A program made the position numbers and the translations under genes. Below are positions 23,767 to 63,419 of a DNA stretch of 64,000 nt, piece after piece (position 1 is the stretch's first letter; each line of letters begins with the position of its first letter). Source of the DNA: Torymus aiolomorphi (lineage: Eukaryota; Arthropoda; Insecta; Hymenoptera; Torymidae); contig CM070877.1 in the NCBI GenBank assembly GCA_036365515.1, positions 54,534,475 through 54,598,474 of the forward strand, read 5' to 3'. Below the pieces are notes generated by a model. The model made no database searches. It was not told the DNA's origin and saw only the letters and a list, made by a program, of their open reading frames with translations.

Positions 23767-23825
23767 GTGGGAGCCCCAACCATCGCTCGCACCTGTGAGG
23801 TACAACCACATACAATTACCTCTCC
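23767..23825 (-). promoter_or_regulatory. Two-hairpin 3' element, copy A
   Basis: Read on the minus strand: hairpin I is GAGGTA...TACCTC with a 14-nt loop, followed by ACAG. Hairpin II is an 8-bp stem (one mismatch) closing the 10-nt loop GATGGTTGGG. It lies about 150 nt past the stop of the minus-strand gene at 23972-24463. Four other copies (29574, 30562, 32508, 63687) share the loop and spacing but have different stem bases. Probable role, by inference: RNA 3'-end or stability signal. Confidence 0.65.
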
Positions 23826-23971
23826 GTTATTATATTTGATTAATTATACATTCCATTTAACATAATGTGTAGAGGTTTACATTGACTTAAATCCACGGCG
23901 TTGTCGTCGGCGCTCACGTAGAAACTGTCAATCGATGACTCTGGTCAGCTGCTGCTACCAAGTATCCACTT

Positions 23972-24463
23972 TTACGATGCGAACACGTTCTGGACGGCGC
24001 AATTGCCATATTCCAAGGTATGATGCGTACACTGTATAACTGACTCCTCTCGGTTTAGTGTCTGCAGCGAAGGACAGCCCATCTCCTCGACGTTGCATAT
24101 AGCCCTACAAGGTTATGTTTGATAAAGTAAACAAAAATTATATATGAGGTAAGTATTTACTTACATATTTAATAATATATCCTGCAACCACCTATTCTTT
24201 TCCAATCCCTTGACGTACACCTTCCTCGCGTTTATCAAACCATACTGTACACTTTCCACCAGCTTCGTGTACGGGATTTCTCCAGAGCTCCAGCGTATAC
24301 CGTCATAGTTCAACTCCACTCGGTAAATCGCCCACCGGTGCGGAGATTTGAAGCTGTGAACCCATGGTGTAGCATCATCCTCGATGGCAGCGATGGCCAC
24401 AACCTTGAAGACGAACTCGCTGTCAGCAGCTTTGAAGCCCTAGACGTCCACCACGTACTCCAT
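23972..24463 (-). pseudogene. Two-exon Polinton-associated gene divergent from polymerase
   Basis: Exon 1 is 24165-24463 and exon 2 is 23972-24104, with a 60-nt intron (GTAAGT...TTGTAG, 24105-24164). The exons total 432 nt in one frame and give 143 residues. The ATG at 24463 follows the initiator by 7 nt. Visible motifs: VVDV with GF near the N-terminus, WSSGEIPY, KVYVKG, then GCPSLQTL and a Cys/His-rich end containing CAVQNV. I associate this pattern with an uncharacterised protein that accompanies protein-primed polymerase genes in insect genomes, possibly nuclease-like; that is memory, not proof. A single TAG interrupts codon 8, so this copy is probably dead although the remainder, splice sites included, is clean. 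Confidence 0.6.
24105..24164 (-). other. 60-nt intron in the divergent gene
   Basis: The minus strand reads GTAAGT at the 5' end and CCTTGTAG at the 3' end. Removing it keeps frame and adds a Cys/His-rich C-terminal exon that would otherwise be lost to an immediate TAA. Confidence 0.7.
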
Positions 24464-25107: not shown

Positions 25108-28100
25108 ATGGCATTGGATAGTCGTGAATCCATCGTGCTCATGCAGCAAGCGTTGGAGCTGATGAGAGGTGGTAATGTGAGCAGCGACATGGCTGAAAGA
25201 TCGGCCAACGTCATAATCGTTGACCACATCGAGACGTACGAGAGACTTCTCCACACCCCAGGCACGAAAGTACACGAGAAGCGAAAATGCGAGTCGGCCA
25301 TCGCTGTACTGTACAGCATACGACAGAGCATGCTGAGCTTCTCTGCGATACGTGGTGTAGGTTTGGCAAGAGTCAGCTTGGATGACGTCAACTCGACCTT
25401 TGATAGCCGCATAAAGACCGGAGTCATCAGCAACCACCAACATCTGGATGCAACAGCATTCCTCGAAGACGCTCGATCCATCTTTATTGCGAAAATACAG
25501 ACCGCTCTCGAGGAACACAACGCACTCAAGGTCAACGCAGTGCTCGCTGCAGAATACACCAAGATCACGGGCAACGAGAAACCAGTGGAAATTTTCTACT
25601 TCAACACAAAGAACGCTCCAATCTACACAACCACCGAACTGAGCGAGTGGTTCGCAGCCAACGTCGAGCAGCCCGTCCTCCGCGAAATGGAGGAATTGCA
25701 GAAACGAGACTCCGGCTGGACACTGCGCTCCATCTTGAACTTGGTTGTGAACGTCAACAAGTTCAATCCCATGAGAGAAAACTCCTAAATACCACTGCCT
25801 GACGAAATAACAAAGAAGAAAGCTTGCATCAACGTGCAAAACGAGGACGATAAGTGCTTCCAGTGGGCTGTACTCTCGGCGCTACATCCAGCTAGCAAAA
25901 ATGCTGTCAGAGTGTGCAAGTATAAGGCATTTGAAGGTGAGTAAACTTCAAGGGTATTGAGTTTCCAGTGTCGCCGAGGCAGATCGCCAAATTCGAGCAA
26001 CAAAATGACGTGTCCATCAATCTGTACATATTGAAGAAGAGTGATGGAAAATTCGAAGTATCACCGTACCATGTTTCAAAAGGCAAGAAGGAGCAACACG
26101 TCAATCTTCTCTTCGTGCAAGACCACTACGTGGGTGAGGATGAAGAGGAGGACGACGACGTAGTGCCCAAATTCCACTACATCTGGATAAAGTATCTCTC
26201 CCGACTAGTTGGAAGGCAACTCAGCTTACGCAATGGTAAGAAGTTCATTTGCGACCGCTGCCTCCACTACTTCAGAAACGATGAAAAATTGAACACTCAC
26301 GAGGTAGACTGCGCTCAGATCAACAAGTGCAAGGTCAAGCTGCCCACGGAGAAGGAAAAGATACTTAAGTTCAAGAATGTCAAAAACAAAGAACGCGTAC
26401 ACTTCATTGTATACGCCGTCTTTGAGTGCGTACTCAAGCCTGTGAGGACAATGAGCGAGCAGGAGGCCTTCAGTGTAGGCTTCTACGTAAAGTGCAGCTT
26501 TGACGAGGCTCGCTGCGGCTACACGAGCTACAGGAAGAACGAGGAGGATGGACAGAATCCAGCAGAATGGTTTGTTGACAAGCTACGAGAGCTCGCCGAG
26601 GAATTGGATAACTCACACAGAATCCTCAGCCAATGGATGGTCTTACACAGCGAGAGAAGGACGACGTCAGGAAGGCCATACACTGCTACATGTGCAGAAA
26701 GCCATTTACCAGCCAGGACAAGAAGGTCAGAGACCACTGCCATCTCACGCGAAAGTAAGTATTTACATTTTTCTCCTCCATCTTACAATTTACTCCTTTT
26801 TCTAATATATTTGTTTATTTTCAGATACAGAGCTCGAGCGCACAACAGTTGCAACATGCACTACCAGGACTCGAGAATTGTGCCAGTGGTTTTCCACAAC
26901 TTGAGCCGTTACGTCTCCCACCTCTTCATCATGGAGATTATAACGCAAATCGGTGGTCGAGGGAGCCTCATCCCTCAGACGAAGGGAAAATATATTTCCT
27001 TCACGAAATATGTCGATGGCACTGAGGTTCAACTCCGATTCATCGACTCGCTTAGCTTCATGCCCTCCTCCCTCGAGAAGTTGGCCTCCTACTTGGACAA
27101 CCTGAAGATCGCTGAACCAGAGTTCAAGAAGAGCTATACTACGGAACAGATAGAGCTACTGAGGAGAAAGGGAGTATTCCCCTACGACTACTTCTCCTCC
27201 CTCGACATCCTGGAGTTGGGAGAACTGTCAACTAAGGAGGATTTTCACAGCAGCCTCTACAACAGCGACATCAGCGAGGAAGACTATCAACACGCCCAGA
27301 AGGTATGGCAATCCTTCGGCATCTAGAGCCTCGGTGAGTACTCCGATCTCTACCTCAAGACAGACGTGCTGCTAGTCGCCGACGTCTTTGAGAACTTCCG
27401 GCACAATTGCCTGGAGGCGTACGGTCTCGACCCGGCGCACTACTGCACCACCCCTGGACTCACTTGGGACGCCATGCTCAAGTAGACCAAGGTCGAGCTG
27501 AAACTGCTCACGGACATCGACATGCTTCTGTTCGTGGAGCGAGGCATCCGGGGTGGTATAAGTCAGTGCTCCAACCGCTACGAAAAGGCCAACAACCGCT
27601 ACATGGGCGACATCTACATCCCTGAGGAGGAGTCTAAATATCTCCTCTACTACGATGTGAATAACCTCTACGGACGGGCCATGATGCAACCCCAGCCCTA
27701 TGGGGGCTTGAATTGTGTCCAGGACGTGGAGCAGCCCAACTTCTGGGATGTGCCCGGCAATCATCACGAGGGCTACATTCTTGAGGTAGACCTGGAGTAC
27801 CCGGAGCACCTTCACGACGCTCACAGAGACTTGCCCCGCTGCCCAGATCACATGGCACCACCTGGTAAGAAACAAGGTAAGTTGCTCACGACTCTGTACG
27901 ACAAAGAGCGCTATATCATCCACTATAGCGCTCTCAAGCAGGCCCTGAAGCACGGCTTGCGCTTGACTAAGTTTCACGGCGCGCTGCGCTTCGATCAAAA
28001 GCCATGGCTGAAGCCGTACATCAACGTGAACAGCGAGAAGAGAAAGAACGCGAAGAATGATTCGAGAAACGCCTCTTCAAGCTGTTCAACAACGCGGTGT

Positions 28101-29106
28101 ACGGCAAGACCATGGAGAACGAGCGCAAGCGGGTGGACGTCAAGCTGGTGCGCAAGTGAGAGGGGCGCTATGGGGCCGAGGCCCTCATAGCCAAGCCAAA
28201 CTTCCACAGCACAGCCGTCTTCAGGGAGAACCTGGTGGCCATCCAACTCAGTCGTACGGAGGTCACCGTCAGGAAGCCGGTAACGTGGGCCTCGCAATCT
28301 TGGATCTTTCCAAGACCCTCGTATACCGGTTCCACTACGAATACATGCAGCGCACTGTGGGTGAGTCGTCGAAGCTGATGTATACCGATACGGACATCCT
28401 GATCTACGAGATCCGCGGCTTCGACATGTACGAAACCATGAAACGCGACCTTCATGAGTTCGACACTCCGGACTTCTCCGAGGACAACCAAGTTGGTAAA
28501 CCTCGCGCGAAAAAGAAGGTAGACGGACTCATGAAGGACGAATGCAATGGCAACATCATGTTGGAGTTCGTGGGCCTTCGCTGTAAGATGTACGGTGTCC
28601 GTATCGAAGGCCAGAAAACCACCAAGAAGGCCAAGGGTGTTCAGTCTTCGGTCGTTAAGACCAACATCAGCTTCGAGGACTACGTGCGCTGCCTGCGTGA
28701 GCAGCAGGTGCTGGCAAAGGAGCAGCGCAACATACGCTTCCGCCTGCACATCATCCGCACGGAGAAGGTGCAGAAGATCGCGCTCAGCCCCCACGACGAC
28801 AAGCGCCATCTGGCGCTTGGCGAGACGGATAGTCTCCCGTGGGGGCACTTCATCCGCGAGTGCGAGATGACGCTGCGCAATGGTGGGGCGTGCATGTGCG
28901 GGCAGGTCTCGACGTGCTCCGATCAGTCAGCGAGCTCCAGCCAATTAGCGAACTCCCCCACTCCCACAGCAACGGCTACGGCGGCTCGAGGAGTGGAGGG
29001 GAGGCCGGTTCTTAAGACGCTACAGCCAGCCGGAGTCATCAGTCGCTCGAAGGAGCTCCAGAAGAAGAAGCACTCCGTCACAGTTATCTCCGAACCTCTG
29101 AAGTAG
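25108..29106 (+). pseudogene. Polinton/adintovirus-like DNA polymerase B (broken)
   Basis: Family-B, protein-primed-type polymerase. From N to C: a helical N-terminal region (25108-25788); a CFQWAVLSALHP segment typical of the insect versions (about 25855); a C2H2 finger FICDRC...HEVDC (26250-26315); a CYMC...RDHCH...AHNSCN endonuclease-VII-like zinc motif (26680-26860) split by an intron; pol motif A YYDVNNLYG (27650); motif [14 protein letters not shown] (28080-28115); motif C MYTDTDI (28378-28398), where family members usually have DTDS. Stops lie at 25786, 27324 and 27483 and a TGA near 28156. Frameshifts lie near 25940, 26630 and 28060. Its C-terminal third is repeated inverted at 31122-32129. 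Confidence 0.8.
26755..26824 (+). other. 70-nt spliceosomal intron inside the polymerase gene
   Basis: GTAAGT donor at 26755 and TTATTTTCAG acceptor to 26824. Splicing joins HCHLTRK to YRARAH in phase and completes the zinc motif; unspliced, the frame is broken. Confidence 0.75.
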
Positions 29107-29212: not shown

Positions 29213-29470
29213 ATGGATCTATCAGCAATTAATGAAATTGCCCGTGGAGGCTTTCTGCCGACAAAGAAGCTGTCCGACGTGGATCACGATCACAGCTTCA
29301 TGGTAGTGACATTGAGGCGCGTCAAGACCAAATATGGACCGAAGTATGTGGCCAACTTAGAAGACAAGTTCCAGATCTTCCTGCCCAGCCGAGTATGTTC
29401 AGCACTGGAGAAGGACGAAGATATGTTCAACAACATGGCGGAGTCTGCCAACAAACTCAGCTCTTTATAA
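29213..29470 (+). CDS. Small conserved Polinton-associated protein, copy 1
   Basis: An open 85-residue frame beginning MDLSAIN. It contains SFMVVTLRRV, KYVANLEDKFQ and FLPSRV, ending near MFNNMAESAN. It follows the polymerase gene by about 110 nt, after a leader intron, and is followed by a two-hairpin element (29574). A second copy (30683-30976, minus) is also open and differs by single-residue changes and one Gly deletion, so the frame survived while adjacent genes decayed. Family unknown to me; a compact basic, possibly nucleic-acid-binding protein is only a guess. Confidence 0.6.
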   Translation: MDLSAINEIARGGFLPTKKLSDVDHDHSFMVVTLRRVKTKYGPKYVANLEDKFQIFLPSRVCSALEKDEDMFNNMAESANKLSSL

Positions 29471-29573
29471 CATGTAAAAATAGTGGTGTTGAATTTAATA
29501 TTGTATAAAAAAAAATAAATAAAAAAAGAAATAAAAAAATTAAAAAAAAATAATAATAAAAAAGGAAGTTCAT

Positions 29574-29633
29574 GGAGAGGTAGCTGCTTATGGTTGTACT
29601 TCACAGGTGAGAGCGATGGTTGGGGCTCTCATC
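29574..29633 (+). promoter_or_regulatory. Two-hairpin 3' element, copy B
   Basis: Hairpin I: GAGGTA/TACTTC (one G-U). Hairpin II: TGAGAGC/GCTCTCA, extended by G-U and G-C pairs, closing loop GATGGTTGGG (29615-29624). It lies about 100 nt past the stop of the small ORF and between it and the convergent integrase gene. Confidence 0.7.
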
Positions 29634-29657
29634 ACTTCCAAAAAAAAAAAATTTTTT

Positions 29658-30377
29658 TTACAAGTTTGTTTTATCAATCCAACTGTTATGAGAACTATCA
29701 AATCCCAGCCATTTAACGTAAACTTCATTACCACGTTTTTTCACAATTTTTTCCACTAGATACACATCTGAATACTTAACCTTTTGTAATTCCTCTTCGT
29801 AGAAACCTCCACTTATAGACTGTTCACGATAATCCTTCAAATGATAAGTAACAGGGTTTGTAGCGGCTACTTCTGTTATGCTGAATATCTCCGTTGACCA
29901 GCTTGGTGTATATCCTTTTTCGAAAACTCGTTTGACTCTGCTCACACGTACCTTGTCACCAACATGAAATTTAGGCTTCTTTTTATGCTGGACAATATTC
30001 TGTTTCATTCTACTACTGTTCTCCGTCACATCTATAGGCTTCATTCCAGTTGTTCTGTGTTTTCTCTCATTGTAAACTGTCAAAAAATCGGGTAAGATAT
30101 CTAACCACTTGTAGTTTCCACGTAGACTGAATTTTTTCCACATCTCATTCTTCAACGTCCGATTGAAGCGTTCGCATTCGAAGCTTTGAGATTGCTGTAC
30201 GTCGAGTAGATATTTATCTTGTACTTTGTCATGAGGACTTCGAATTTCTTGTTGTAGAATTCCTTTCCTCTGTCGGTATGGAGATTCTTCGGCACTCGAC
30301 CACTTTCGCGCAACACAGACTTCATAGCTGCTGCTACAAACCCTGTTACTTATCATTTGAAGGATTATCGTGAACAA
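29658..30377 (-). pseudogene. Polinton-type integrase with chromodomain (truncated)
   Basis: A retroviral-type (rve) integrase C-terminal half. It has the Asn/Arg-rich ERFNRTLKNEMW helix carrying the catalytic Glu, the YNERKHRTTGMKP segment, an FHVGDKVRV SH3-like strand and a C-terminal chromodomain (VYLVEKIVKKRGNEVYVKWLG). A D-R-G-K-E-F catalytic-Asp motif is visible just upstream in another frame (about 30265), so at least one frameshift is present. It is convergent with the small ORF. The gene is cut at about 30330, where the inverted copy begins. Confidence 0.75.
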
Positions 30378-30563
30378 TCCATAAGTGGAGGTTTCTACGA
30401 AGAGGAATTACAAAAGGTTAAGTATTCTGATGTGTATCTGGTGGAAAAAATTGTGAAAAAACATGGTAATGAAATTTACGTTAAATGGCTGGGATTTGAT
30501 AGTTCTCACAAGAGTTGGATTGATAAATCAAACTTGAAAAAACAATTTTTTTTTTGGAAGTGA
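30328..30563 (+). pseudogene. Integrase C-terminal fragment, inverted copy
   Basis: Repeats the last 68 or so codons of the minus-strand integrase, chiefly the chromodomain (VYLVEKIVKKHGNEIYVKWLG), in opposite orientation. Homology starts abruptly at GCTACAAACCCTG (about 30328), matching about 29870 on the other strand. This marks one breakpoint of the inverted duplication. Confidence 0.75.
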
Positions 30564-30621
30564 TGAGAGCCCCAACCATCGCTCTCACCTGCGAGGTACA
30601 ACCATAAGCAGCTACCTCTCC
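30562..30621 (-). promoter_or_regulatory. Two-hairpin 3' element, copy C
   Basis: On the minus strand: GAGGTA/TACCTC hairpin, then the TGAGAGC/GCTCTCA stem with loop GATGGTTGGG. It is the inverted twin of copy B and lies past the stop of the minus-strand small ORF. Confidence 0.7.
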
Positions 30622-31121: not shown

Positions 31122-32129
31122 TCAGAGGTTCGGAGATTTGGCGGAGTGCTTCTTCTTCTGAAGCTCCTTCGAGCGACTGATGACACCGGCTGGCTGCAAC
31201 GCCTTAAATACCGGCCACCCCGCCACTCCTCGAGCCGCCGTGGCCGCTACTGCGGGAGTGGGGGAGCTCGCTGATTGGCTGGAGCTCGCTGACTGGTCGG
31301 AGCAAGTCGAGACCTGCCCGTACTTGCACGCCCCACCATTGCGCAGCATCATCTCGCACTCGCGGATGGAGAAGTGCCCCCACGGAAGACTATCCGTCTC
31401 GCTAAGCACCAGATGGCGTTTGTCGTCGTGGGGGCTGAGCGCGATCTTCTGCTCCTTCTCCGTGCGGATGACGTGCAGGCGGGAGCGTATGTTGCGCTGC
31501 TCCTTTTCCAGCACCTGCTGCTCACACAGGCAGCGCACGTAGTCCTCGAAGCTGATGTTGGCCTTAACGACCGAGGACTGGACACCCTTGGCCTTCTTGA
31601 TGGTTTTCTGGCCTTCGATACGGACACCGAACATCTTACTATGAAGGCCCACGAACTCCAACATGACGTTGCCATTGCATTCGTCCTTCATGAGTCCGAC
31701 TACCTTCTTATTCGTGCGAGGTATACCAAATTGGTTGTCCTCGGCGAAGTCCGAAGTGTCGAACTCATGAAGGTCGCGCTTCATGGTTTCGTACACGTCC
31801 AAACCGTGGACCTCGTAGATGAGGCTGTTCGTATCGGTATACATCAGCTTCGACGACTCACCAACAGTGCGCTGTATGTATTCGTAGTGGAACCGGTATA
31901 CGAGGGTCTTGGAAAGATCCAAGACTGCGAGGCCCACGTATACCGGCTTCCTGATGGTGACCTCCGTACGACTGAGTTGGACGGCCACCAGGTCCTTCCT
32001 GAAGACGGCTGTGCTGCGGAAGTTTGGCTTGGCTATGAGGGCCTCGACCTCATAGCGCTCCTCCCACTTGCGCACCAGCTTGACGTCCACCCGCTTGCGC
32101 ACGTTCTCCATGGTCTTGCCGTACACCAC
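31122..32129 (-). pseudogene. DNA polymerase B C-terminal third, inverted copy
   Basis: An uninterrupted frame homologous to the polymerase from motif B (VYGKTMEN, 32129) to the C-terminus. Motif C reads MYTDTNS, so the second catalytic Asp is Asn; the other copy has DTDI instead. Upstream of 32129 the homology ends abruptly in a GC-rich palindrome (32143-32197), so the frame has lost the N-terminal two thirds. The tail (CSDQ...ELQKKKHS) matches copy 1. Confidence 0.75.
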
Positions 32130-32142
32130 GTTAGTAGGTAAA

Positions 32143-32197
32143 CAGTGGCGGTTCTGGGCCACTTCCTGGAATTCCAGGTGGCCCAGAACCACCACTG
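32143..32197. repeat. GC-rich 20-bp-arm palindrome at the polymerase breakpoint
   Basis: Arms 32143-32162 and 32178-32197 pair with one mismatch (GGTTCTGGGCCAC against its complement). An inner CCTGGAATTCCAGG palindrome lies between. It sits exactly where polymerase homology stops. Confidence 0.8.
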
Positions 32198-32500
32198 GGG
32201 TCTCTGGAACATGCGTGTTTCAGAATTGCACGAGGTGCGTTAACCAAGAAGTGGCCCAGAACCCCACAGGGTTTCTAGAGTTGTAGGAGGCTAGTTAATC
32301 CAAGTGGCCCAGAACCCCCACAGGGTTTTGAGGTGGGAGGTTTGGAGTTGTAGGAGGTTAGATAATCCATCGAGCATCCTGCGGCCAGCTGTGGCGCTGC
32401 GAGCGGCCTGCGGTTGGCGCTGCGTGCGGTCAGCTGTCAGTGGCATGGAGGCCACCATGCGCGTCTGAACTCGTTTGATCGACAAATTAATTTGTAAGAG
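32198..32500. repeat. GTGGCCCAGAACCCC repeat region
   Basis: Tandem, imperfect units carry GTGGCCCAGAACCCC, CAGGGTTTCTAGAGTTGTAG and GGAGGCTAGTTAA, followed by a CAGCTGTGGCGCTGCGAG-rich segment. It is the inverted counterpart of 63760-64000. It may be terminal or intergenic DNA of the Polinton-like element. Confidence 0.7.
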
Positions 32501-32507: not shown

Positions 32508-32566
32508 ATGTAGGCCCCAACCATCGCCTACATCTGTGAGGTACCCCATTTAATTAATACCCCTCC
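32508..32566 (-). promoter_or_regulatory. Two-hairpin 3' element, copy D
   Basis: On the minus strand hairpin I is GGGGTA/TACCTC (one G-U). Hairpin II is ATGTAGGC/GCCTACAT around GATGGTTGGG. Relative to copies B and C, three consecutive stem pairs differ, each compensated on the other side. Confidence 0.75.
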
Positions 32567-32733: not shown

Positions 32734-33024
32734 CTAAACAAGCTTCTTCACATCCCCACTCACTGGATTATACTGAACAATACGATCGTGTAAAATCAAG
32801 CAGTAGACTGATGTTCCCTCTGGAAAGTTATCGTGAGCCTCAAATTCAAGACGCACATCTACAGGAGCGCTCTTTATGGACTCATTCTGTTTGGAATAGT
32901 CTATAACTATGAGTGGCATGTGATTGATAAAGGCCGCCTTATTTAGCAAAGGCTCAGGATATTTTTCAAAGTAGAAAGCTTAAAAATTGACGTACATATC
33001 GTAAAGAAGAGCATATTCGAGCAT
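32734..33024 (-). pseudogene. Capsid-like protein C-terminal fragment (left arm)
   Basis: The frame reads MLEYALLYDMY near 33024, has a TAA, then YFEKYPEPLLNKAAF, MPLIVIDYSKQNES, PVDVRLEF and AYCLILHDR-type strands ending VKKLV. I associate this C-terminal signature with a putative structural (capsid) protein in insect Polinton-like elements; this is from memory and only moderately certain. The right-arm copy at 63133-63419 has a stop at the same codon (TGA) plus a 4-nt deletion. Confidence 0.45.
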
Positions 33025-37260: not shown

Positions 37261-39355
37261 TTAATCCTCGTCACTATCTTCGTCTATTACAGGACCAATA
37301 TCTGAAGTAGTAAATAATTCGGAAAGAACTTTTGCTGGTCTAATAATTTTTGACTTATATCTTGCATTACTGAGATAATATATGACTGCAGCAATGTGAG
37401 AACAGGATCCTACAGTTCGTAATCCATTGACACAGTCACACGCATGGCGTAGGATACCGCTGTATCCAATTGAGTTAGGTTTGTATTCGATGTAGCATTT
37501 GTAAGTCTTACTGTTAATATGCTTGGACCTTATTAATACTTTAATGATATTTGGTTTGATCTTAATATATTCCAAATTGATATTGTTACTATCATCCATT
37601 AACTCAGCCAAAAAACATACGGCTTGACCTAATTGATAGGTTCCTGAAAAAAATATTTTGAGATCTCTTTCAGTCATCTCCGGAAAGTCAATGATTTCTT
37701 AGGATGTTAGCTTGATCGTAGTAGTGGGCCCTCTAGACCATCTGGTTGTCTCAGCTTCTAATGCTAAGGTATTTTCACTTTGATTAGAATTTAACATTCT
37801 TTCGATGATTATACCTTGTAAGCCACCGTCATCTTTATCGCTATTCAAACGCTTACCATAAGGTTGTTGAGAAAACATGCAATTCTACATATGCACCAGC
37901 TTTTAGTAAAAGTTTATTATCTAATTGCTGGTGAAGAAGCTTATACTTTTTACCAAGAATACCATGAACAGCCTCTACAACCCATCTCAATTTCGTAACG
38001 TAACGAGATTCATTCGATTCAGTCATACTCAAGTTGGGTTTATTTCCCTTTAAGGCAGGCATGAGAATCTTAAAGTCAAGACTTTTTAAATAAGGTATCA
38101 CATCCCTAAAACCTCTATCTACAACGCAAACATCACCTTCTCTCATGATAGTTCTTATACCATCTGGATCATCCATTACTTTCTTCATGATGCTTGCATC
38201 ATTTTCTGTGGCTAAAAACGGACCAGGGACATCAACAACGAATCCGTCTGTAGTGCAAATAGTGAATGGCTTGGCCAAAGGATATTTCTTCTGACCTGAA
38301 TATGACTTTCTTTGGTATTCATTATTTTTACTTTTTCGGTGATGTAAGTAAGATCCATCAAAAACCAAAACAAGCTCGTTCTCTAATTTAAACAGTTTTT
38401 TGCATAAATGGAAGTGTGATTACGTATGAGAGCCTCCCTTTTAATACTTTTTACTCCGAAATATTTCGGTAGGACATCTTTTTCAAATGGATTAATTACT
38501 GATTCACAAAAATCTGAAACTTTTATTTCGTTTTTTATTGCGAAAATAGACGAAATAACATTATTCGACGATCCAGTTCGTAATTTAAATAAACATATAA
38601 CCAGGGCTTGTGTAACGTCTCTAGAATCCGATGATCTCATGGAAACTAATAATTTTCTCAGTTCTTGCAATTGATCAGTCGAAAGACTAGTGAAAGAGAA
38701 TAATTGTTTTTCGCTAAGCTCTGATGATTTTATTTTATCTAAAAATGTTTCCGTGGCTAAATCTGAAATTTTTTTAAAAATAAACATATTTCATCTGCAG
38801 TTAAAAAACTCGTGTTACTGTATATCTGTATTAGTTTCAGGTCATCATCAAAAAATCGTTTTTTTATTAAATACTCGGTACAAACTCGATTGCCATTTGG
38901 AATAAAGATTTGCATTTCTTTGAAACATTGCAGTTTTGCAGTCAATGGTACACATGTCAAGTTATTTTTGTTTCTACAAACGCAACATGCTATATGAGAA
39001 ATCATAGTTCTTTTGAGGGGCAACTCGGTGGAAGGTTTTTTTTCTACAGTTGGTTTTAATACTACCTCAACAACGCTCCCTGAACTCTGAGAGCCGGGTA
39101 TTTCTGAGCTTGACTGCGAACTCATTGGCTGACTTTGATCACTGGTTGAAGGTTCTACTTTTCGTGTCCCAAAAAAACAAGTCTTCTACATTTATCGCAA
39201 AGTTTAAACCCAATGTCAACATTATCTATATTTAGCTACTCACAAACTGCTTCGACTTCACTAGCTGAATTAATAATCTTAATCTGAGCTGATATTTTAC
39301 TGAGATTTCGCTTGAAGCAGTTGCAACATTGATCAGTATCATCAAATTCATCCAT
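37261..39355 (-). pseudogene. DDE_Tnp_4 / SWIM transposase (broken)
   Basis: Reading 39355 down: an N-terminal Cys-rich finger (CCNCFKRN...LCDKCRRL), a second Cys pair (CCVCRNKN), a helical domain (38787-38383), and the DDE domain (38368-37853). The DDE domain has VFDGSYLHH (Asp), VCVVDRGFRD (Asp) and LRWVVEAVHG (Glu). The C-terminal SWIM-type zinc motif is CDCVNGLRTVGSCSH (37677-37261). This order is what I recall of insect ISL2EU/PIF-like transposases. Frameshifts near 38770, 38400 and 37870 and stops near 39240 and 37700 inactivate it. All three catalytic residues remain. Confidence 0.75.
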
Positions 39356-40444: not shown

Positions 40445-41516
40445 TGTAACGCGTGTCTAGCCGCGATTCTAATCTACCGCGCGAAGGTAGTGAGCGCGCG
40501 CGCGCAACTCCTGCGCAGCCGAATCGAGGCGCGCCGCGCGTAGCGAATCGGTCTCACGACGCGTAAAATGCCCGTCATCCGTCGCGAAGCTGCTAACTGG
40601 TTCCCGCGAGAAAAGGGAGCCATATTCGTGTCTGCCATCGCGCTAAAAACATCTCCTCCGTGTCTCTCCTGTTTTACTTGTCCGCGCCGTCCTATCGTAC
40701 CTTGTGAGACCCCGCGAGTGTAGTGGAGGCGCCGTATAAAGTGAACGTGCGAAAGAGAGACAGAGAGAGAGAGCTGTCCCGAGCCGCGTGAGCCGCACGA
40801 GACTGTGAGGAACGAGCCGGCAGCCAACCCGCCTGCCGACACGATACAGCGAGCAAGAGAGAGAGAGAAAGAGAGCACAACTGCTGTGCGAGCGACAGGG
40901 AGCGAGAGAGAGTCGAGTGCACCGGCTGCTCCTTCCTAACGTAAGTTTTCTACTCTCCTCTCGCGGGTTTATTGTAAAGGCTCGCACGGAAATCGCCCCG
41001 TGCAAGCCTTCTGTGCCGTGTACGTGGGGGTGTGTGTCAGCCCTCCGTACTTTAACACCGCGCGCGAAATTAGCAGCTTCGCCGCGCGCCGTGTAGTTCG
41101 CGCGTTTGAATATTAACGGTCGCGCGCGAACTAACTCTTTGTACTAATCAGCACTTGCGTCGTGCTTGTAAAGATTAGTGTTTGGGAATATATTGTTATA
41201 TCTAGTTACTCGTCGCGTTGTTCTTTACAACCTGTCCTTCTCCCGGATACCGCCGCCTCCGCGGGAAAACGACTCCGCCGGTCGTTTTCATATCTGAGCA
41301 TAGCGGCCGCGCGCTTTACTCGTCGAGCGCGCGCTTTTCACTCAGCGATCCAATTAGTTGGAAAGCGAAGTTCGTGTGCGATCTTCGCGTTGTTTTCGGA
41401 TTCCAGGAGCAGATCCCCGGGCAAGTCATTTTAGTCTGACACCCGCGGCACCGTGTTCTAGGGCATCGCTGGCCTGTGGCTTGTTGGGATTTTCCCCCAC
41501 TAGCCATCCCGTTACA
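40445..41516 (+). repeat. 5' LTR
   Basis: TGTAAC...GTTACA. TATAAA at 40735-40740 is a likely core promoter, followed by a GA-rich stretch. A strong GTAAGT splice donor at 40941 lies within the LTR downstream of the probable start, so it would be in the transcribed leader. Confidence 0.93.
40941..40946 (+). promoter_or_regulatory. Splice donor in the LTR leader
   Basis: CTAAC|GTAAGT at 40941. It pairs logically with the TTTCAG acceptor at 48350-48355 to make a subgenomic RNA for the third ORF, as retroviruses do for env. Inferred, not proven. Confidence 0.5.
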
Positions 41517-41518
41517 AC

Positions 41519-41540: not shown

Positions 41541-42475
41541 TGGAGAAGGACCTGCGACGCGTACGTGATTCGCGGCGAAGCTTGGCGCGAAGAAGCTCAG
41601 CAGCGTAGCTGAGCGTAAGCTGCAAACAAAGGCTCTTCGTGCCGCAGCTCGTAGGCGCGTGTGTGCGTGTGCGTGACACAGCCGTGCTGTTGCGAGAGTG
41701 CGGTCGAGAGGTTAGGCGTGCGATAGCCAATAACCCTCGACCTAGTGTGCCGACGAGGAGAGATATTGATCGCGGAATTTTTGGAGCGTTGAGGAATTAT
41801 TGTTAACAATTAAAGTTTTTTAATAACAATTAATTTTTTAACGACAAAATTTTTTTTTTAGCGATAATTAATTTTTTTAATTAATTTTTTTTCTCGTCTC
41901 GAAAATTTTTTTTTCTTCTCGTCCTCGTATTTCCGATACGAATTATTTTTTTTTGGGCGAAAAATAAAATTTTTTTTTCTTTTATCGTGCAGTTAGAAGA
42001 AGATCGAGAGAAAGTCGGCAAGCACTCTCGGAACAAAAAGTTGACTGTGCGCCCGAGTAAAAACTCGAGCGCAAAAATCCCCTCGAACTTAAAAATTGTT
42101 TTTATTTTTTTTAGGTGAAAATTGTATTTATTTTTTTTGTGTTTTTGGTGATTTTGTCCGTTTTGACACATATATATATAATTTTTTTTCACATATATTT
42201 ATTTTAAAATTACAAGTGCGAGTAGTGGAGCGTAATTAATTACAAATCGTAATTAATTACAGAAATAGCTTTTATTTTTTTTAGAGCCGCATACGGGAAA
42301 TCCTCGTACATTATCGAGGTTAAGAGCAACCGCCGTAGCTCTTAGAAAATAACCCGGGTTCGCGTTGAAAAAGCTAGCTCACGGGTTGAAAAGGCAAACT
42401 CTCTCTGCCATCAATCAGGATACTACTCGCGCTAGTAAAATAAGTTCGTGGGGAAGCGCACAGCCAATTGACACC
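41541..42475. other. Untranslated leader of the Gypsy element
   Basis: GC-rich then AT/T-rich (41800-42200) leader. No gene. The gag-pol frame is open from 42365 but lacks an ATG until 42476. Confidence 0.7.
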
Positions 42476-45400
42476 ATGGCCCGATCGTCGCAATTTGCGG
42501 AATCTGCGATACTCAATTGGGCGTATACACAGCCCGAAGAGGAAATTATCGAGGCCATGCAAGCCCTTGGTCTGCAGCAGTCAGATCTGCAATCAGTGAA
42601 TATGCTGACAACGATCAAGTGGCTTATGGGCGATTACAGTGCCGCCGATTTTGTGCCAGAGCCGGAGCTGTCGGAGAAGCAAGCGTTTGCTAAACGCGAG
42701 CAGTCCCGAAGGGCGTTCATCGACTTAACGTTGATGAACAAGTCTGGGTCGACTATTGTGGATCCCAATACTGATCCAGACCAACCGCACCCGTTCATTA
42801 CGCTCCTTGATGACCCGATAGTGATGCAAAAACTCTCGGAGTCTCGGAGGATGAACGCTCCACAACAAGCACATAATGCAGTGGTGGAGCCAGCGGATGA
42901 GGCAAACGGCCAGGAGGGTTCCGGGACAGAGATATTGAGCTCTGCAGCACCCACCGGGACATCTCCAGCCGAAGCCGAGGGACAGCTCCAACAGCAACAG
43001 CTTCAACAGCAACAACTGCAGCAGCAGCAAATGCAGCAGCAGCAAATGCAGCAGCAGCAAATGCAGCAGCAGCAACTGCAACAGCAGCAAATGCAGCAGC
43101 AGCAAATGCAGCAGCAACAAATGCAACAGCAGCAGCAGATGGAGCAGCAGCGACGGCAGCAACAGCAACAGCAGCAGGAGCAGCAGCGGCAGCAACAGCG
43201 AAAGCATCAAGAGCAGCAGCGACAGCAGGCGTTGCTAGAAGAGCAGCGCAGGCAACGACAATTCCGGCGGAGTCAAGAACAAGAGTCGTTGTCGGCACAA
43301 AATGGGCAGCACGCGTTCTGGCAGCAAACGCGAAGTCCACCGCAGCCACAGAGTTTTGAGTGGCCAAGGGCGGGGGAACAGCGTACCGCAGGGATTGCTG
43401 TGGGAGATAACGTAGTCTCAGAACAGCTGCTGTCGGTGATCCATAGACTCGTCAAAGAGGTGGAAGAGCTCAAAGAGAGTGTGCGAATACTCCAAGAAGC
43501 TCGACACCCACCCTCAAGCACGCGCTTGGAGGGAGTCCAACTACCGAGTGCGGGCAGGGGACGAGGATCACCACATGTGAACTTTCAGGACACGTTCACA
43601 TATGTGAATTTTGACAGCAGCAGCCCCAATACTGAATCGCCAAGGGACGCTAGGAGGAATAGCGGAAGAAATCCTACACAGCGTCAGGCGAGGGTGAGCG
43701 CTACACTGGACCAGTCTACGAGGCAGACGTACGTGCCTCAACAGACGAACCGTGATGTTGGCCAAATCGTAAGGAAATGGCACATCAAGTTCTCTGGGTC
43801 CTTGAAGGAGCAGAGCGTCGAGTTATTCCTCACGAGAGTAGAGGAATGTCGAGCTCTAGCAAATCTGACGTACGACGAAGTACTCTCGTCATTGTCAGAG
43901 CTCCTGAGTGGAGTAGCGGCCACCTGGTATAGGAGTAACCGTCATACGTGGCGATCTTGGCAAGACTTCCAAGAGGCCATAATACACATGTATGGCGGTG
44001 ACAGGGGCCATCAACAGCGAATCCTAGCGGAGATAAACGCGAGGACTCAAGGCAGAAACGAACTCACGAGAGATTACGTAGTGAATCTGCAAGCCTTGAT
44101 TCTCAAGTTAGTTCCGGTGCCTAGCATGCCCCAACAATTGGACATGTTGCACCGGAACATGCGGCCAGAACTACAAAAAATGGTGATGCGTAATCAAATT
44201 ACGGATTACCGAGGGCTCCTGGATTTAGCCCGGGAGGCCGAATTAGCGCTCGCGGCAGATAAGGTGTATCACTCGCCACCACCGCCAGAGCGCACTTACT
44301 TGCCAGAGTTTGCCTACGTACCTACAGAGCCAACCACGGATCAGCGGAAAAAGCAGAATCCAGGAGTGGCGGCGATGGGGCAACAACAGCAGGAGCCTCG
44401 AGAAAGCCTCGAGGCTATGTTCCGTCGGGTGATGGCCGAGTGTTTGTCAAGCTTGACAAAGAAAGGCACCGACGGAAATAGTGGGCAAACGCCAAACCCA
44501 CAGTCGTTCAAGAAGCCCAAGAAAAAGAATAATTGGGAGAACAGGCAGCGGGAAGGCGGGCAAAGTAATAATCAGCCTAGTGGGGTAGTAGCGCGACCCA
44601 CCAGGCTAGGCCGCCAAGTCCAAGGAGTAATGGACCTCCACAAAGGCCAGAGTACCGAAGGGGTTACGGCAACGAGCAAAGGGGAAGCGACCGCAACCCC
44701 AATGCTGCCGGAAACCAGCAGGGAAACGGCCAAGGGGCAGGTAAACACGGCCACACGCCCGCCCCCAGCTCTCACATCAGCGACCGAGGGTAACTCGGTC
44801 CAATTGCCTGAAGGAGAGAGCGAAGAAGTGCCCGCGACTCAGCAGAACGAAGATAACCAGGAAACATGCTCGCGATGGTGGCTTCAAGTAGGTGTAGCCG
44901 GCTACAGGCTACGGGCACTCTTCGATACTGGAGCTTCCTGGACTGGGATGAATTCTATCGGCTTACAGCTCGCTACAGCCTGTGGAAAAGAATTAATCCC
45001 GGCCAGCGGCCTAACGGCACGGGTAGCTAATGGGCAGAGCATAGCAGTGGTTGGCTATGTGTATCTACCCATGGTCGTGGCAGGCGTGTGCAAGGATGTG
45101 CGCGTCGCAATCATGCCAGACTTAGACACGGAGTGCTACTTGGGGGTGAACTTCATTAAGAAGTTTAGCGCCGTCTTAGACCCCACTGACAATACGCTGC
45201 ATCTCAAAGATGATGAGGCAAGCGTAAAGTTAGAAGTAGCCTCCATAACCGGCAATAATACCGTGTCCGTATCAGCTATAGGGTTGGCGGACCCAACAGA
45301 AGAGCAGCGCAAAGAAGCGGAAGCTTTAGTAGCTGAGCTGATGGGAAACGGCCTGGCACCATTAGGGTGTACTTCGTGGGTTGAGCATGCAGTAGACGTC

Positions 45401-48256
45401 GGCTCCACAAGACCCATAAAACAGAAGTACTACCCAGTATCTCGAAAACTCGAGGAAGAGATGCACAAGCAGGTGGAGGAAATGCTACTCGCGGGTATAA
45501 TAGAACCTTCGACAAGCGGCTGGTCAAGCCCTGTGGTAATGGTACGCAAGTCCAACGGGAAGTTCCGTTTCTGTGTGGACTTCAGAAAAGTGAACGCAGC
45601 GTCAAGGCCAGACGCATACCCGTTACCATACATGGAGAGTATCTTAAGCAAACTGCAGAAAGCGCGATACATATCCACGTTGGATTTAAGTAGTGCGTAC
45701 CACCAAATACCACTAAATCCGGAGTCCAAAGAGACTACGGCCTTCACCGTGCCAGGCAAAGGGTTATTTCAATTTACAAGAATGCCCTACGGTCTTTCGT
45801 ATGCCGGAGCGTCCTTCCAGAGGCTGATTGACAAAGTCATCGGCCCCGAACTCGAACCTTTTGCTTACTCGTATCTCGATGACATAATAATAGTCACAGA
45901 AACATTCGAGGAGCATAAAGAGGTTCTAAAAAGAGTTCTAGATAGGATAAAGGACGCGGGCCTCACAATAAATCGCGAGAAGAGTGTCTTCTGTCGCGAT
46001 GAGGTCCAATATCTCGGGGTCATAGTAAATAGGGATGGTTTTAAACCAGACCCCGAGAAAATAAAGCCCATTATGGAATATCCGGTGCCGAAAAACCTCC
46101 GTCAGCTGAGACGCTTCCTAGGAATGGCCTCGTGGTATAGAAAGTTTTTATCAAACTTCGCCACAATTGCTGAACCACTGACCGAACTAACGAAAAAGGA
46201 TCGGAAATACGAGTGGTCAACGGCACAAGAAGAGGCCTTCCAAAAGCTAAAAGCGCTAGTTGCTTCTGCACCGATTCTCCACAGACCGGTATCTAACGCA
46301 CAGTTCGTGGTGCAAACTGATGCGAGCGATACAGGACTTGGAGCGGTGCTATACCAGATAATAGACGGCAACGAAAGAGTCCTAGAGTTCGCTAGTCGAA
46401 CTCTGAGCGCGGCCGAGAAGAATTATAGCGTGACGGAACGAGAGTGTCTAGCAATTCTCTGGGCAATCAAAAAGTTCCGTCCGTATATAGAGGCCTATGA
46501 CTTCAAGGTCATCACGGATCATAGCAGCTTGAAGTGGCTCCGTGATCTCCGAAACCCATCAGGCAGGTTAGCAAGATGGGCTTTGGAACTACAAAACCAC
46601 AGTTTCACAGTCGAACACCGAAAGGGCTCTTTGAACAATGTCCCAGATGCCCTTTCGCGGATGTTCGAGGAAGAGGAGCCAGCGGTCGCCGCGTTAGAGC
46701 TCGAACGCGATGCAAACGACCAATGGTACCTCGAAATTGTGAAAGAGGTTCAACAGCGGCCGCGAGACTTCCCCACGTTCAAGCTGGCGGGGGGGAGACT
46801 GTACAAGTACGAACCTGATGAAGTCATAGACGAGTCTCTCGGCGACGATGATGCATGGAAGTTAGCAGTCCCTCACGAAAAGCGACGCGAAGTACTGAGA
46901 GAATGCCATGACTTTCCAACTGCTGGGCACTTGGGCCGCGAGAAAACGCTAGAAAGAGTAAAGCGGAAGTATTATTGGCCACACATGTCTCGTGATGTAG
47001 CCAGATACGTGAGCCAGTGCCAAATTTGCCAGCAGTGCAAAGTCGAACAGCGCGCTCCAACAGGATTCATGGGACGCCGAATTACAGAGCGTCCATGGCA
47101 AATCGTGGCCAGCGACATTATGGGGCCCCTCCCAAAAACCACGCACGGCCACGAATACATTCTCATATTCCAGGACTTGTTCACACGCTGGATTGAAGTA
47201 ATTCCGATAAAAAGGGCAGATGGTAAATCGGTAATTAAGGGACTCAACGAGCGAGTATGTCTGCGATTCGGAGTCCCGGAGGTGTTTCTCTCAGACAATG
47301 GGACTGAATTTAAAAATGCACCATTAGAGGCATTCTTAAAGGAGAGAAATGTGCATCACACGTTTACACCTCCGTATCATCCTCAAGCCAACCCTGTCGA
47401 GCGTGTGAATCGAACGGTGAAGACAATGATTATGTCTTACGCAGAGGAAAATCACCGGTCCTGGGATGAGAAACTGAATGAGCTGGCGTTCGCGTACAAT
47501 ACTGCCGAACACAGCTCCACAAAGATAAGTCCTGCCATGCTCATTTACGGCCGACAACCCGACCCACCGAAGACACTAAGACGGGAGGAAGACAGGTTAG
47601 CCGAAGAGCAAGGGCAGCAAGAGGCGATAAACAATTGGGTGGTACGTATGGACAAGCTCCGCGAATTGCACGTTCGGGCGGCGGCCGACGCGCAAGCGGA
47701 GCAGGCGAGACAAGCCAAATATTATGACGCTCATCGTCGACCTCCACAATTCTGTCTAGGCGATCGTGTATGGAGAGAGAATAAGGTACTATCCTCAGCA
47801 GCTGAGGGGATTTCTGCCAAATTAGCCCCGAAGTACGCGGGGCCCTACACGATTGTGAATATTCTAGGCGAAAACACCTATGAGATCCAAGGTGAGGATG
47901 GTCGAACGATACGTCCCGTCCATGCGCAGCAACTCAAGAGATACGTCTCAGCAGAAGTAGCCCAGGCGCTACCAGCGAGGGACTCTTCAGCCGAACGTAA
48001 CACGTCAGAGGGCCACAGAGTTAGCCAGGGGAATGTACAGCCTCGGGCGACGGCTAAGAGGCGCGGTCCACCTCGTAAGACCGCGCTATTAGTTAGGCCA
48101 GGAAAGCGTGCGAGCGATGGCCGGCCTATGCGTGTGGCCGGTCCAACAGAACCCAAGCGAGGCCCAGGGAGGCCAAAGGGTTCGAAGAAGAAGCCCGTAC
48201 CTGCTGATGCCGGACTAATTAGTCCTCGTAGAACCCGAGCGTATAAAAAGCAATAA
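42476..48256 (+). CDS. gag-pol: Gypsy Gag-Pol polyprotein
   Basis: 1926 residues from the ATG at 42476 (ACCATGG context). Gag: a poly-Gln tract (about residues 171-262), a retrotransposon-gag core around 428-585 (FSGSLKEQSVELFL...WYRSNRHTW) and no visible CCHC zinc knuckle. Protease: LFDTGAS near 817. Reverse transcriptase: FCVDFRKVN, then YLDD near 1132. RNase H: QTDASDTG near 1280 and ITDHSSLKWL. Integrase: HHCC zinc finger about 1475-1523, then Asp (ASDIMGP, about 1545), Asp (LSDNGTEF, about 1605) and Glu (NPVERVNR, about 1641). The tail is basic with PKRGPGRPKG, an AT-hook-like motif. Gag and Pol share one frame with no frameshift. All catalytic residues checked are present. Confidence 0.95.
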   Translation: MARSSQFAESAILNWAYTQPEEEIIEAMQALGLQQSDLQSVNMLTTIKWLMGDYSAADFVPEPELSEKQAFAKREQSRRAFIDLTLMNKSGSTIVDPNTDPDQPHPFITLLDDPIVMQKLSESRRMNAPQQAHNAVVEPADEANGQEGSGTEILSSAAPTGTSPAEAEGQLQQQQLQQQQLQQQQMQQQQMQQQQMQQQQLQQQQMQQQQMQQQQMQQQQQMEQQRRQQQQQQQEQQRQQQRKHQEQQRQQALLEEQRRQRQFRRSQEQESLSAQNGQHAFWQQTRSPPQPQSFEWPRAGEQRTAGIAVGDNVVSEQLLSVIHRLVKEVEELKESVRILQEARHPPSSTRLEGVQLPSAGRGRGSPHVNFQDTFTYVNFDSSSPNTESPRDARRNSGRNPTQRQARVSATLDQSTRQTYVPQQTNRDVGQIVRKWHIKFSGSLKEQSVELFLTRVEECRALANLTYDEVLSSLSELLSGVAATWYRSNRHTWRSWQDFQEAIIHMYGGDRGHQQRILAEINARTQGRNELTRDYVVNLQALILKLVPVPSMPQQLDMLHRNMRPELQKMVMRNQITDYRGLLDLAREAELALAADKVYHSPPPPERTYLPEFAYVPTEPTTDQRKKQNPGVAAMGQQQQEPRESLEAMFRRVMAECLSSLTKKGTDGNSGQTPNPQSFKKPKKKNNWENRQREGGQSNNQPSGVVARPTRLGRQVQGVMDLHKGQSTEGVTATSKGEATATPMLPETSRETAKGQVNTATRPPPALTSATEGNSVQLPEGESEEVPATQQNEDNQETCSRWWLQVGVAGYRLRALFDTGASWTGMNSIGLQLATACGKELIPASGLTARVANGQSIAVVGYVYLPMVVAGVCKDVRVAIMPDLDTECYLGVNFIKKFSAVLDPTDNTLHLKDDEASVKLEVASITGNNTVSVSAIGLADPTEEQRKEAEALVAELMGNGLAPLGCTSWVEHAVDVGSTRPIKQKYYPVSRKLEEEMHKQVEEMLLAGIIEPSTSGWSSPVVMVRKSNGKFRFCVDFRKVNAASRPDAYPLPYMESILSKLQKARYISTLDLSSAYHQIPLNPESKETTAFTVPGKGLFQFTRMPYGLSYAGASFQRLIDKVIGPELEPFAYSYLDDIIIVTETFEEHKEVLKRVLDRIKDAGLTINREKSVFCRDEVQYLGVIVNRDGFKPDPEKIKPIMEYPVPKNLRQLRRFLGMASWYRKFLSNFATIAEPLTELTKKDRKYEWSTAQEEAFQKLKALVASAPILHRPVSNAQFVVQTDASDTGLGAVLYQIIDGNERVLEFASRTLSAAEKNYSVTERECLAILWAIKKFRPYIEAYDFKVITDHSSLKWLRDLRNPSGRLARWALELQNHSFTVEHRKGSLNNVPDALSRMFEEEEPAVAALELERDANDQWYLEIVKEVQQRPRDFPTFKLAGGRLYKYEPDEVIDESLGDDDAWKLAVPHEKRREVLRECHDFPTAGHLGREKTLERVKRKYYWPHMSRDVARYVSQCQICQQCKVEQRAPTGFMGRRITERPWQIVASDIMGPLPKTTHGHEYILIFQDLFTRWIEVIPIKRADGKSVIKGLNERVCLRFGVPEVFLSDNGTEFKNAPLEAFLKERNVHHTFTPPYHPQANPVERVNRTVKTMIMSYAEENHRSWDEKLNELAFAYNTAEHSSTKISPAMLIYGRQPDPPKTLRREEDRLAEEQGQQEAINNWVVRMDKLRELHVRAAADAQAEQARQAKYYDAHRRPPQFCLGDRVWRENKVLSSAAEGISAKLAPKYAGPYTIVNILGENTYEIQGEDGRTIRPVHAQQLKRYVSAEVAQALPARDSSAERNTSEGHRVSQGNVQPRATAKRRGPPRKTALLVRPGKRASDGRPMRVAGPTEPKRGPGRPKGSKKKPVPADAGLISPRRTRAYKKQ

Positions 48257-49513: not shown

Positions 49514-50584
49514 TGTAACGCGTGTCTAGCCGCGATTCTAATCTACCGCGCGAAGGTAGTGAGCGCGCGCGCGCAACTCCTGCGCAGCCGAATCGAGGCG
49601 CGCCGCGCGTAGCGAATCGGTCTCACGACGCGTAAAATGCCCGTCATCCGTCGCGAAGCTGCTAACTGGTTCCCGCGAGAAAAGGGAGCCATATTCGTGT
49701 CTGCCATCGCGCTAAAAACATCTCCTCCGTGTCTCTCCTGTTTTACTTGTCCGCGCCGTCCTATCGTACCTTGTGAGACCCCGCGAGTGTAGTGGAGGCG
49801 CCGTATAAAGTGAACGTGCGAAAGAGAGACAGAGAGAGAGAGCTGTCCCGAGCCGCGTGAGCCGCACGAGACTGTGAGGAACGAGCCGGCAGCCAACCCG
49901 CCTGCCGACACGATACAGCGAGCAAGAGAGAGAGAAAGAGAGCACAACTGCTGTGCGAGCGACAGGGAGCGAGAGAGAGTCGAGTGCACCGGCTGCTCCT
50001 TCCTAACGTAAGTTTTCTACTCTCCTCTCGCGGGTTTATTGTAAAGGCTCGCACGGAAATCGCCCCGTGCAAGCCTTCTGTGCCGTGTACGTGGGGGTGT
50101 GTGTCAGCCCTCCGTACTTTAACACCGCGCGCGAAATTAGCAGCTTCGCCGCGCGCCGTGTAGTTCGCGCGTTTGAATATTAACGGTCGCGCGCGAACTA
50201 ACTCTTTGTACTAATCAGCACTTGCGTCGTGCTTGTAAAGATTAGTGTTTGGGAATATATTGTTATATCTAGTTACTCGTCGCGTTGTTCTTTACAACCT
50301 GTCCTTCTCCCGGATACCGCCGCCTCCGCGGGAAAACGACTCCGCCGGTCGTTTTCATATCTGAGCATAGCGGCCGCGCGCTTTACTCGTCGAGCGCGCG
50401 CTTTTCACTCAGCGATCCAATTAGTTGGAAAGCGAAGTTCGTGTGCGATCTTCGCGTTGTTTTCGGGATTCCAGGAGCAGATCCCCGGGCAAGTCATTTT
50501 AGTCTGACACCCGCGGCACCGTGTTCTAGGGCATCGCTGGCCTGTGGCTTGTTGGGATTTTCCCCCACTAGCCATCCCGTTACA
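49514..50584 (+). repeat. 3' LTR
   Basis: 1071 bp. The differences seen from the 5' LTR are one fewer GA dinucleotide in the GA-rich run near 49930 and one extra G near 50466. Confidence 0.93.
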
Positions 50585-52859: not shown

Positions 52860-53310
52860 TATACAGGTAACATCCTTTTTATACTTTTATGCCATAGAGC
52901 AACCCCGTTAACACATTTATTTCATAGAGTACACCGTTTCTACGTTATAGAATCACACCTACTTCATGTTATAAAGTAGCACCTTTTTATGTCATAGTGT
53001 CACACCTTCTTTATGTTCTAGAGTCACACCTTCTTTATGTTATAGAGTCACGTCTTTTTTATGTTACAGAGAAGCATATTCTTCATTTCATAGAGTGACC
53101 CCTTTATTATGTTATAGAGTAACACCTTTTCTATGTTATAGAGTAACACTTTTTTATGTCATATAGTCACACCTTTTATGTCTCAGAGTGACATGTTTTT
53201 TATGTCATAGAGTTACACCTTTTATGTAGTAGAGTAACACGTTTTTTATGTCATAGAGTAGCACCTTTTTCATATCATAGAGTAACACTTTTTATATGTC
53301 ATAGAGTAAA
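52860..53310 (-). repeat. Minisatellite array, minus orientation
   Basis: Tandem 22-24-bp units read on the minus strand as GTTACTCTATGACATAAAAAGGTG with many variants. A few more units lie at 53757-53835 on the other side of a small TIR element. Confidence 0.85.
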
Positions 53311-53311
53311 A

Positions 53312-53757: not shown

Positions 53758-53854
53758 ATGCCATAGAATAACACCTTTCTTATGTTATAGAGTAACACCT
53801 TCTTTATGTTATAGAGTTACACCTTTTATGTCATACATCAACACCCCTCGAATA

Positions 53855-54767: not shown

Positions 54768-54769
54768 TA

Positions 54770-57748: not shown

Positions 57749-57750
57749 TA

Positions 57751-63132: not shown

Positions 63133-63419
63133 ATGCTCGAATATGCTCTACTTTACGATATGTACGTCAATTTTTGAGCTTCCTACTTTGAAAAATATCC
63201 TGAGCCTTTGCTCAATAAGGCGGCCTTTATCAATCACATGCCACTCATAGTTATAGACTATTCCAAACAGAATGAGTCCATAAAGATCCTGTAGATGTGC
63301 GTTTTGAATTTGAGGCTCACGATAACTTTCCAGAGGGAACATCAGTCTACTGCTTGATTTTACACGATCGTATTGTTCAGTATAATCCAGTTAGTGGGGA
63401 TGTGAAGAAGCTTGTTTAA
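63133..63419 (+). pseudogene. Capsid-like protein C-terminal fragment (right arm)
   Basis: Matches 32734-33024 inverted. A TGA after MYVNF and a 4-nt deletion near 63285 break the frame. The downstream VYCLILHDRIVQYNP block is readable in the shifted frame. Confidence 0.45.

Follow-up and report, generated by a model that had tools for sequence, protein, structure and literature searches.

Why does one short, two-hairpin motif recur behind genes in this stretch of a wasp genome, and what might it do there? The stretch, referred to below as the window, comprises 64,000 nucleotides of Torymus aiolomorphi. A sequence-only reading had placed five copies of an RNA-like element in it, and all five are found in the 64-kb window at the coordinates and strands it gave, with stems, linker and loop as it described:

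23767..23825, minus strand: element copy of class A, with hairpins P2 and P3 and one C/C mismatch in P3; covariance-model score 85.5 bits; downstream of the two-exon gene A
29564..29639 (core 29574-29633), plus strand: element copy of class B, with closing stem P1 GGAAGT/ACTTCC; covariance-model score 94.7 bits
30556..30631 (core 30562-30621), minus strand: element copy of class B, in the second arm of an inverted duplication; 95.8 bits
32493..32585 (core 32508-32566), minus strand: element copy of class C, with an 11-bp closing stem TGTAAGAGAGG/CCTCTCTTACA; 92.9 bits
63668..63760 (core 63687-63745), plus strand: element copy of class C, in the other arm of a large inverted repeat; 90.2 bits

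The first hairpin (P2) is pairable in five of five window copies when G-U pairs are included, as had been claimed. The ACAG linker was described as general and is present in four copies, but the copy at 30562 reads GCAG. Likewise, the proposed three-pair, two-sided change between classes B and C in the second hairpin (P3) is real, although the C/C mismatch in copy A (arms GTGCGAGC/GCTCCCAC) had been left unmentioned. The five sites were right, but their non-independence and the optional closing stem had been overlooked. Repeat analysis of the window revealed that 29574(+) and 30562(-) are the two arms of one inverted duplication and that 32508(-) and 63687(+) are the two arms of a further one, and the window thus contains three independent copies: A (23767), B and C. 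Among the window copies, 98.6% of 70 stem cells are paired (1 of 500 shuffles was equally high) and four pairs show a two-sided change. Because 87 of 500 shuffles matched the latter value, the window copies alone are insufficient to settle covariation. The loop 10-mer, with one mismatch allowed, occurs 9 times in the window against a shuffle mean of 5.2, which is not clearly above the shuffles (7 of 100 equally high).

The window also contains a protein-primed-type PolB, a retrovirus-like integrase and a double jelly-roll capsid, all in pieces, with the capsid pieces in a separate inverted repeat from PolB and the integrase. Judged by these sequences, the carrier can be assigned to the animal Polinton/Maverick (adintovirus) type. 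The genes that bear on the element are as follows:

23958..24439, minus strand: gene A in two ORF pieces (24164-24439 and 23958-24104) that, judged by eye, are probably separated by an intron; homologues lie upstream of class A elements elsewhere
27486..29103, plus strand: PolB ORF pieces, kept apart here; PF03175 on 27522-28190 (E = 2e-9)
29236..29529, plus strand: remnant of a small ORF that separates PolB from copy B; approximate position, taken from locus L008 (L008:1133-1426)
29661..30407, minus strand: ORF of an integrase with chromodomain (PF00385); convergent with copy B and with no element in its own sense
31125..32219, minus strand: inverted duplicate of the PolB 3′ region, identified through the inverted repeats; upstream of the copy at 30562
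32737..32979, minus strand: capsid C-terminal piece (PF21738, 76.1 bits); upstream of a class C copy
63276..63416, plus strand: capsid C-terminal piece (PF21738, 35.2 bits); upstream of the copy at 63687

The small ORF behind PolB is an open frame of 98 aa in L008 and is not open in the window. The integrase has 2728 protein relatives; among the matches listed, the named ones come mostly from wasps (Nasonia, Leptopilina, Microplitis, Trichogramma and a Megastigmus wasp adintovirus), and a bee is also represented.

Genome counts covered 1.08 Gb in 21 contigs, and their totals are lower bounds for repeats. The core pattern CAGNTGNNNGCGATKGTTGGGGCNNNCA has at least 348 exact matches genome-wide, while the reversed-pattern control has 0. 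A loop-free pattern, which fixes the P2 3′ arm, the linker and the P3 ends and leaves the 10-nt loop open, has at least 444 genome matches, again with 0 for its reversed control. These counts rule out a chance origin of the element. A covariance model (R1) built from the five window copies detected 47 matches when run on the window and 30 loci. Twenty 10-kb pieces yielded 42 more, reduced to 40 by excluding the two weakest (E 0.07 and 0.4); of the resulting 87 matches, 71 are distinct in the element or its 110-nt flanks. Because the pattern loci were selected through the match, the similarity of their cores is a product of that selection; classes E-H and most copies of class I came from the covariance model and not from the pattern. 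The earlier reading had named two outcomes that would speak against it. For the first, a lack of further copies, this genome instead holds hundreds, and most of those examined follow Polinton genes. For the second, stem changes that break pairing, the copies aligned from this genome favor RNA structure, although single decayed copies do have broken pairs.

The flanks sort the 71 rows into nine classes (A, 16; B, 12; C, 13; D, 9; E, 5; F, 10; G, 1; H, 1; I, 4), and locus L054 adds one further D-like and one further F-like copy. These flanks are class-specific and common to many loci, which suggests that the copies have long occupied fixed sites. Many copies sit inside broken Polintons, where decay is evident: the 5′ half is missing from three C copies, 8 of 10 F copies have no intact P3, and mismatches are present in singleton copies. 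Class F (L013-L017, L042, L043, L045 and L054) has mostly a 3-nt P2 loop and often no intact P3, which is retained in L047 and L054; it looks like piecewise loss of the element.

The predicted element is ~60-95 nt long and consists of hairpins P2 and P3 and, in some classes, the closing stem P1. P2 has six pairs and a loop of mostly 14 nt; P3 has eight pairs, to which a ninth may be added, and its loop usually measures 10 nt. Of 60 full elements, 56 have ACAG as the linker. Covariation was assessed in two alignments that were fitted to the model's own structure, which favors it, and whose related rows inflate shuffle tests: in the larger (A6; all 52 genome sources, 66 distinct rows among 89 covariance-model matches), pairing is kept in 95.4% of 886 stem cells, two-sided changes occur at 11 of 14 pairs and in both stems (those in P2 frequently resting on few rows), and none of five measures was reached by any of 500 shuffles. 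Sliding the A6 structure by 1-3 columns left 39-56% paired. The smaller alignment (A5; 34 of 51 sources, E up to 1e-10) gave 95.5% paired and two-sided changes at 10 of 14 pairs, with the count of further pair types reached by 17 of 500 shuffles. The 17 loci omitted from A5 are mostly overlapping or twin loci and include L010, L011 and L029 with half-deleted copies; the A6 picture is the same. RNAalifold on A5 drew P3 and not P2. The proposed selection on RNA structure is thus upheld by many more copies, by compensated stems and by 0 of 500 shuffles, and the covariance-model search that had been suggested as a check, started from the five copies, found many further copies in this genome and covariation beyond shuffles.

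The kinds of pairs also indicate which strand is constrained. Parsing of the 60 full elements (the 71 rows minus eight F copies and three C copies with a deleted 5′ half), in the best-pairing register of each, assigned 735 Watson-Crick, 64 G-U, 17 A-C and 25 other cells out of 841. Class F copies that have no P3, as well as L049 2420, are misread by this automatic parse, and G and H probably are too. In the 59 elements left when L049 2420 is removed, G-U exceeds A-C both in cells (61 vs 17) and in distinct events (25 vs 12). This excess would be reversed if the elements were read on the opposite strand, which argues that the constrained strand is the gene-sense strand.

Support for the closing stem differs among classes. 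Flank pairing in one representative per class, compared with 1000 dinucleotide shuffles, placed P1 beyond the shuffles in class B (6 bp; 5/1000, L008), class I (7 bp; 5/1000), class C (11 bp; 0/1000, L021) and class G (10 bp; 1/1000). Class D was borderline (82/1000), and P1 was unsupported in classes A, E, F and H (584, 609, 787 and 593 of 1000 shuffles, respectively). Because P1 is supported in some classes only, a three-way junction is probably limited to those classes and not universal. Single-strand folding of five stretches predicted this junction in four, with the class A copy folding differently. Two hairpins, conserved unpaired letters and a three-way junction in some classes are what a self-cleaving ribozyme or a ligand-sensing RNA in the 3′ UTR might offer. 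However, several classes have no P1 or no support for it, and the P2 loop is down to 3 nt in class F. Furthermore, Rfam 15 (4227 families) gave 0 matches at the curated gathering score in the whole window, and below-threshold matches in two of three copy regions were weak, chance-like and not credible. The ribozyme role listed earlier therefore has no support from Rfam in the window, and we regard this explanation as highly improbable.

Conservation extends from the stems to the P3 loop. Among the matches listed for the loop-free pattern, the loop reads GATNGTTGGG in 74 of 100 and carries at most two changes in the remainder; T occupies positions 6 and 7 in all 100, and position 4 varies freely. 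The conserved loop of the second hairpin that had been reported is thus near-invariant in these matches even when the pattern leaves it open. Outside the elements, the loop motif showed no clear excess for 9- and 10-mers, and the count of the 8-mer GGTTGGGG there is unreliable because element copies were misfiled among them. In classes A, B, C, D and I, copies resemble one another more in the core than in either 100-nt flank; in class E the core is not more alike than the upstream flank, whose similarity equals or exceeds that of the core. The class C profile stays at 0.27-0.54 in the outer flanks; it is 0.61-0.91 across the element together with the sequence close to it on the 5′ side, with a fall from 0.87 to 0.44 where the element ends. 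In most classes GGNNG ends the P2 loop ahead of the 3′ arm, while the rest of that loop varies; this motif could possibly make a tertiary contact.

The placement just behind genes in the same sense, noted for five copies, extends to the pattern loci. When the ORF pieces of the window served as queries, 26 of 30 loci had a recognised same-sense gene upstream; that of L024 is more than 1 kb distant. Two of the remaining four have only a convergent integrase and two have nothing; an opposite-sense recognised gene upstream was found in 0 of 30. At least six unrelated kinds of ORF are followed by the element. Class A copies lie behind gene A. The other distances, given only where the ORF itself was read, place class B 35 nt past the stop of the 98-aa ORF behind PolB (L008), class C a few nt past the stop of gC (L021), a gene A paralogue behind the capsid gene that is only a remnant in the window, class E ~13 nt past the stop of a small ORF in most copies, and class F, again in most copies, ~18 nt past the stop of gF, which is likewise paralogous to gene A. 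In class D, the stop codon of an acidic ORF falls within the 5′ flank that may form P1. Class H lies 66 nt behind an ORF, class I lies behind a likely ORF convergent with E, and the class G copy has no clear ORF upstream. L054 has two genes in succession, and an element copy closes each of them. The integrase has no element in its own sense in the loci read, and behind PolB and the capsid the first copy comes only after the next ORF.

Gene A, gC and gF form a two-exon paralogue family (window 23958-24439(-), L021:901-1443 and L043:6389-6894) that gave no Pfam match and has 36 protein relatives, all unnamed. A deposited protein, P0121 (172 aa), is 91% identical to gC, crosses the gC frame change of L021 and has the same end residues just before the class C element. 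That P0121 reads across the frame change suggests that gC is a spliced gene. Because the three genes are paralogous, classes A, C and F may have been inherited together.

Copies behind unrelated genes could also be left by a small mobile or copy-pasted DNA repeat, similar to the double-hairpin elements found in organelle genomes, that moves among Polinton intergenic sites and keeps its pairing for its own spread. Classes B and I, which have nearly the same core and P1, would fit such a repeat, and palindromic elements are described as movers elsewhere in the portions of that literature available. However, a mobile repeat does not predict 26 of 30 loci behind genes in sense with no opposite case, class-specific flanks at many loci point to old residents of fixed sites, and an excess of G-U over A-C is unneeded in a double-stranded DNA repeat. 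We therefore consider this explanation improbable.

Taken together, gene sense, nearness to the stop codon, the unrelated genes, the near-invariant loop and the compensated stems fit a common RNA domain of mRNA 3′ regions. We hypothesize, with confidence evenly divided for and against, that the element is a shared 3′-UTR RNA tag of Polinton mRNAs that acts at the mRNA 3′ end, in its formation or protection. The element would be transcribed within the mRNAs of many Polinton/adintovirus genes as a common 3′ tag, and one trans-acting factor would bind its loop and junction. The bound factor would then set or protect the mRNA 3′ end, with an effect on formation or stability and not on export or translation.

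Poly(A) signals bear on how such a tag might work. AWTAAA lies within 60 nt upstream in six of nine class representatives and within 40 nt downstream in two, and is in neither place near the representatives of classes C, E and I. The signal thus has no fixed place relative to the element, which weakens the reading as a simple terminator. RNA folding in HTLV-1 reportedly brings the poly(A) signal to the cleavage site; we rejected an HTLV-1-like arrangement here because AWTAAA is missing near C, E and I. The main rival is control of translation or nuclear export, in which a host or viral protein binds the finished mRNA and virus genes are switched together, the ends being made by host signals. 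Conservation of loop and linker suggests a specific binder, and A-rich DNA with an ordinary AATAAA lies near several classes, as export or translation control would allow; however, wherever a stop codon is readable the element is very close to it, as would be expected of a short 3′ UTR. We regard this rival as possible, although rather unlikely.

A tag acting at mRNA 3′ ends would have parallels. Histone mRNAs end in a 3′ stem-loop, one conserved structure behind a whole co-regulated gene set. The element resembles it in being one structure behind a gene set, whereas the histone signal is a single short stem-loop of other sequence. In Mimiviridae, according to the available part of the source, palindromic hairpins at mRNA 3′ ends are cut and the mRNAs polyadenylated by viral enzymes (PMC4402537). 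Shared with that system, as far as this part describes it, are a predicted RNA structure at gene 3′ ends, a large-DNA-virus relative and probably one structure per transcript; in contrast, the present element has two hairpins with a conserved loop and linker, lies in an animal nuclear genome and is conserved in sequence as well as structure (PMC4402537). Regarding Mimivirus-type placement, 26 of 30 loci are in sense, while the integrase has no copy and PolB and the capsid have one only after a further ORF. By analogy with what the available text describes, the element may work most like these per-gene hairpins (PMC4402537). The Y-shaped element of chikungunya virus is, in the accessible part of its description, also a covariation-supported branched RNA in a viral 3′ UTR; such RNA-virus structures end an RNA genome, whereas here many separate genes of an integrated DNA element are followed (PMC10174580). 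Mitochondrial double-hairpin or repetitive hairpin elements, as partly available accounts present them, are likewise short hairpins in many intergenic copies; they are seen as mobile repeats, whereas the present element stays in the sense of its genes, tolerates G-U pairs and has a linker and loop that are fixed.

A scan of the IMG/VR collection with the element patterns and the integrase yielded no relative. L001, L002 and L053 were rejected as relatives because their matches are chance matches and their ORFs are phage-like by eye; L053 reached only 13.6 bits (E 0.0045), with P3 deleted. Among the papers listed in a literature search, none dealt with RNA elements behind Polinton genes, and the word Polinton occurs in none of 12 papers listed out of 1,569 in a further search; this does not prove that no such paper exists. 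To our knowledge, little is known of Polinton and adintovirus gene expression, and a covarying RNA domain behind their genes offers a handle on it through transcript ends and a binder. The element could also serve to flag Polintons in insect genomes. Should it prove to set mRNA ends, it would extend to an animal element the giant-virus idea that RNA structure punctuates a viral genome. We tentatively suggest, while doubting that it reaches so far, that a Polinton lineage stamps nearly every transcription unit with one RNA domain and that a dedicated factor removes viral mRNA 3′ ends from host processing, as a virus-wide punctuation code.

Many Polinton copies appear palindromic, with minus/plus pairs of elements 6-18 kb apart and mirrored gene order (window 32266-36761/59846-64000; C1:76838897(-)/76851204(+); C1:86150839(-)/86161663(+)). 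These copies look like fold-back derivatives of a linear replicating genome. The window additionally contains an LTR retrotransposon with terminal repeats at 40445-41517 and 49514-50585 and an ORF of 1963 aa at 42365-48256(+) (RT, RNase H and integrase). The terminal repeats are identical over two 300-nt stretches and 98% identical over a third, which suggests a recent insertion. An open transposase-like ORF of 352 aa lies at 55873-56931(+), with DUF4817 above cut-off and HTH_Tnp_Tc3_2 just below, and an ORF with a DDE_Tnp_4 transposase domain lies at 37856-38419(-). Finally, 52961-59460 holds arrays of a 24-bp repeat in two inverted blocks.
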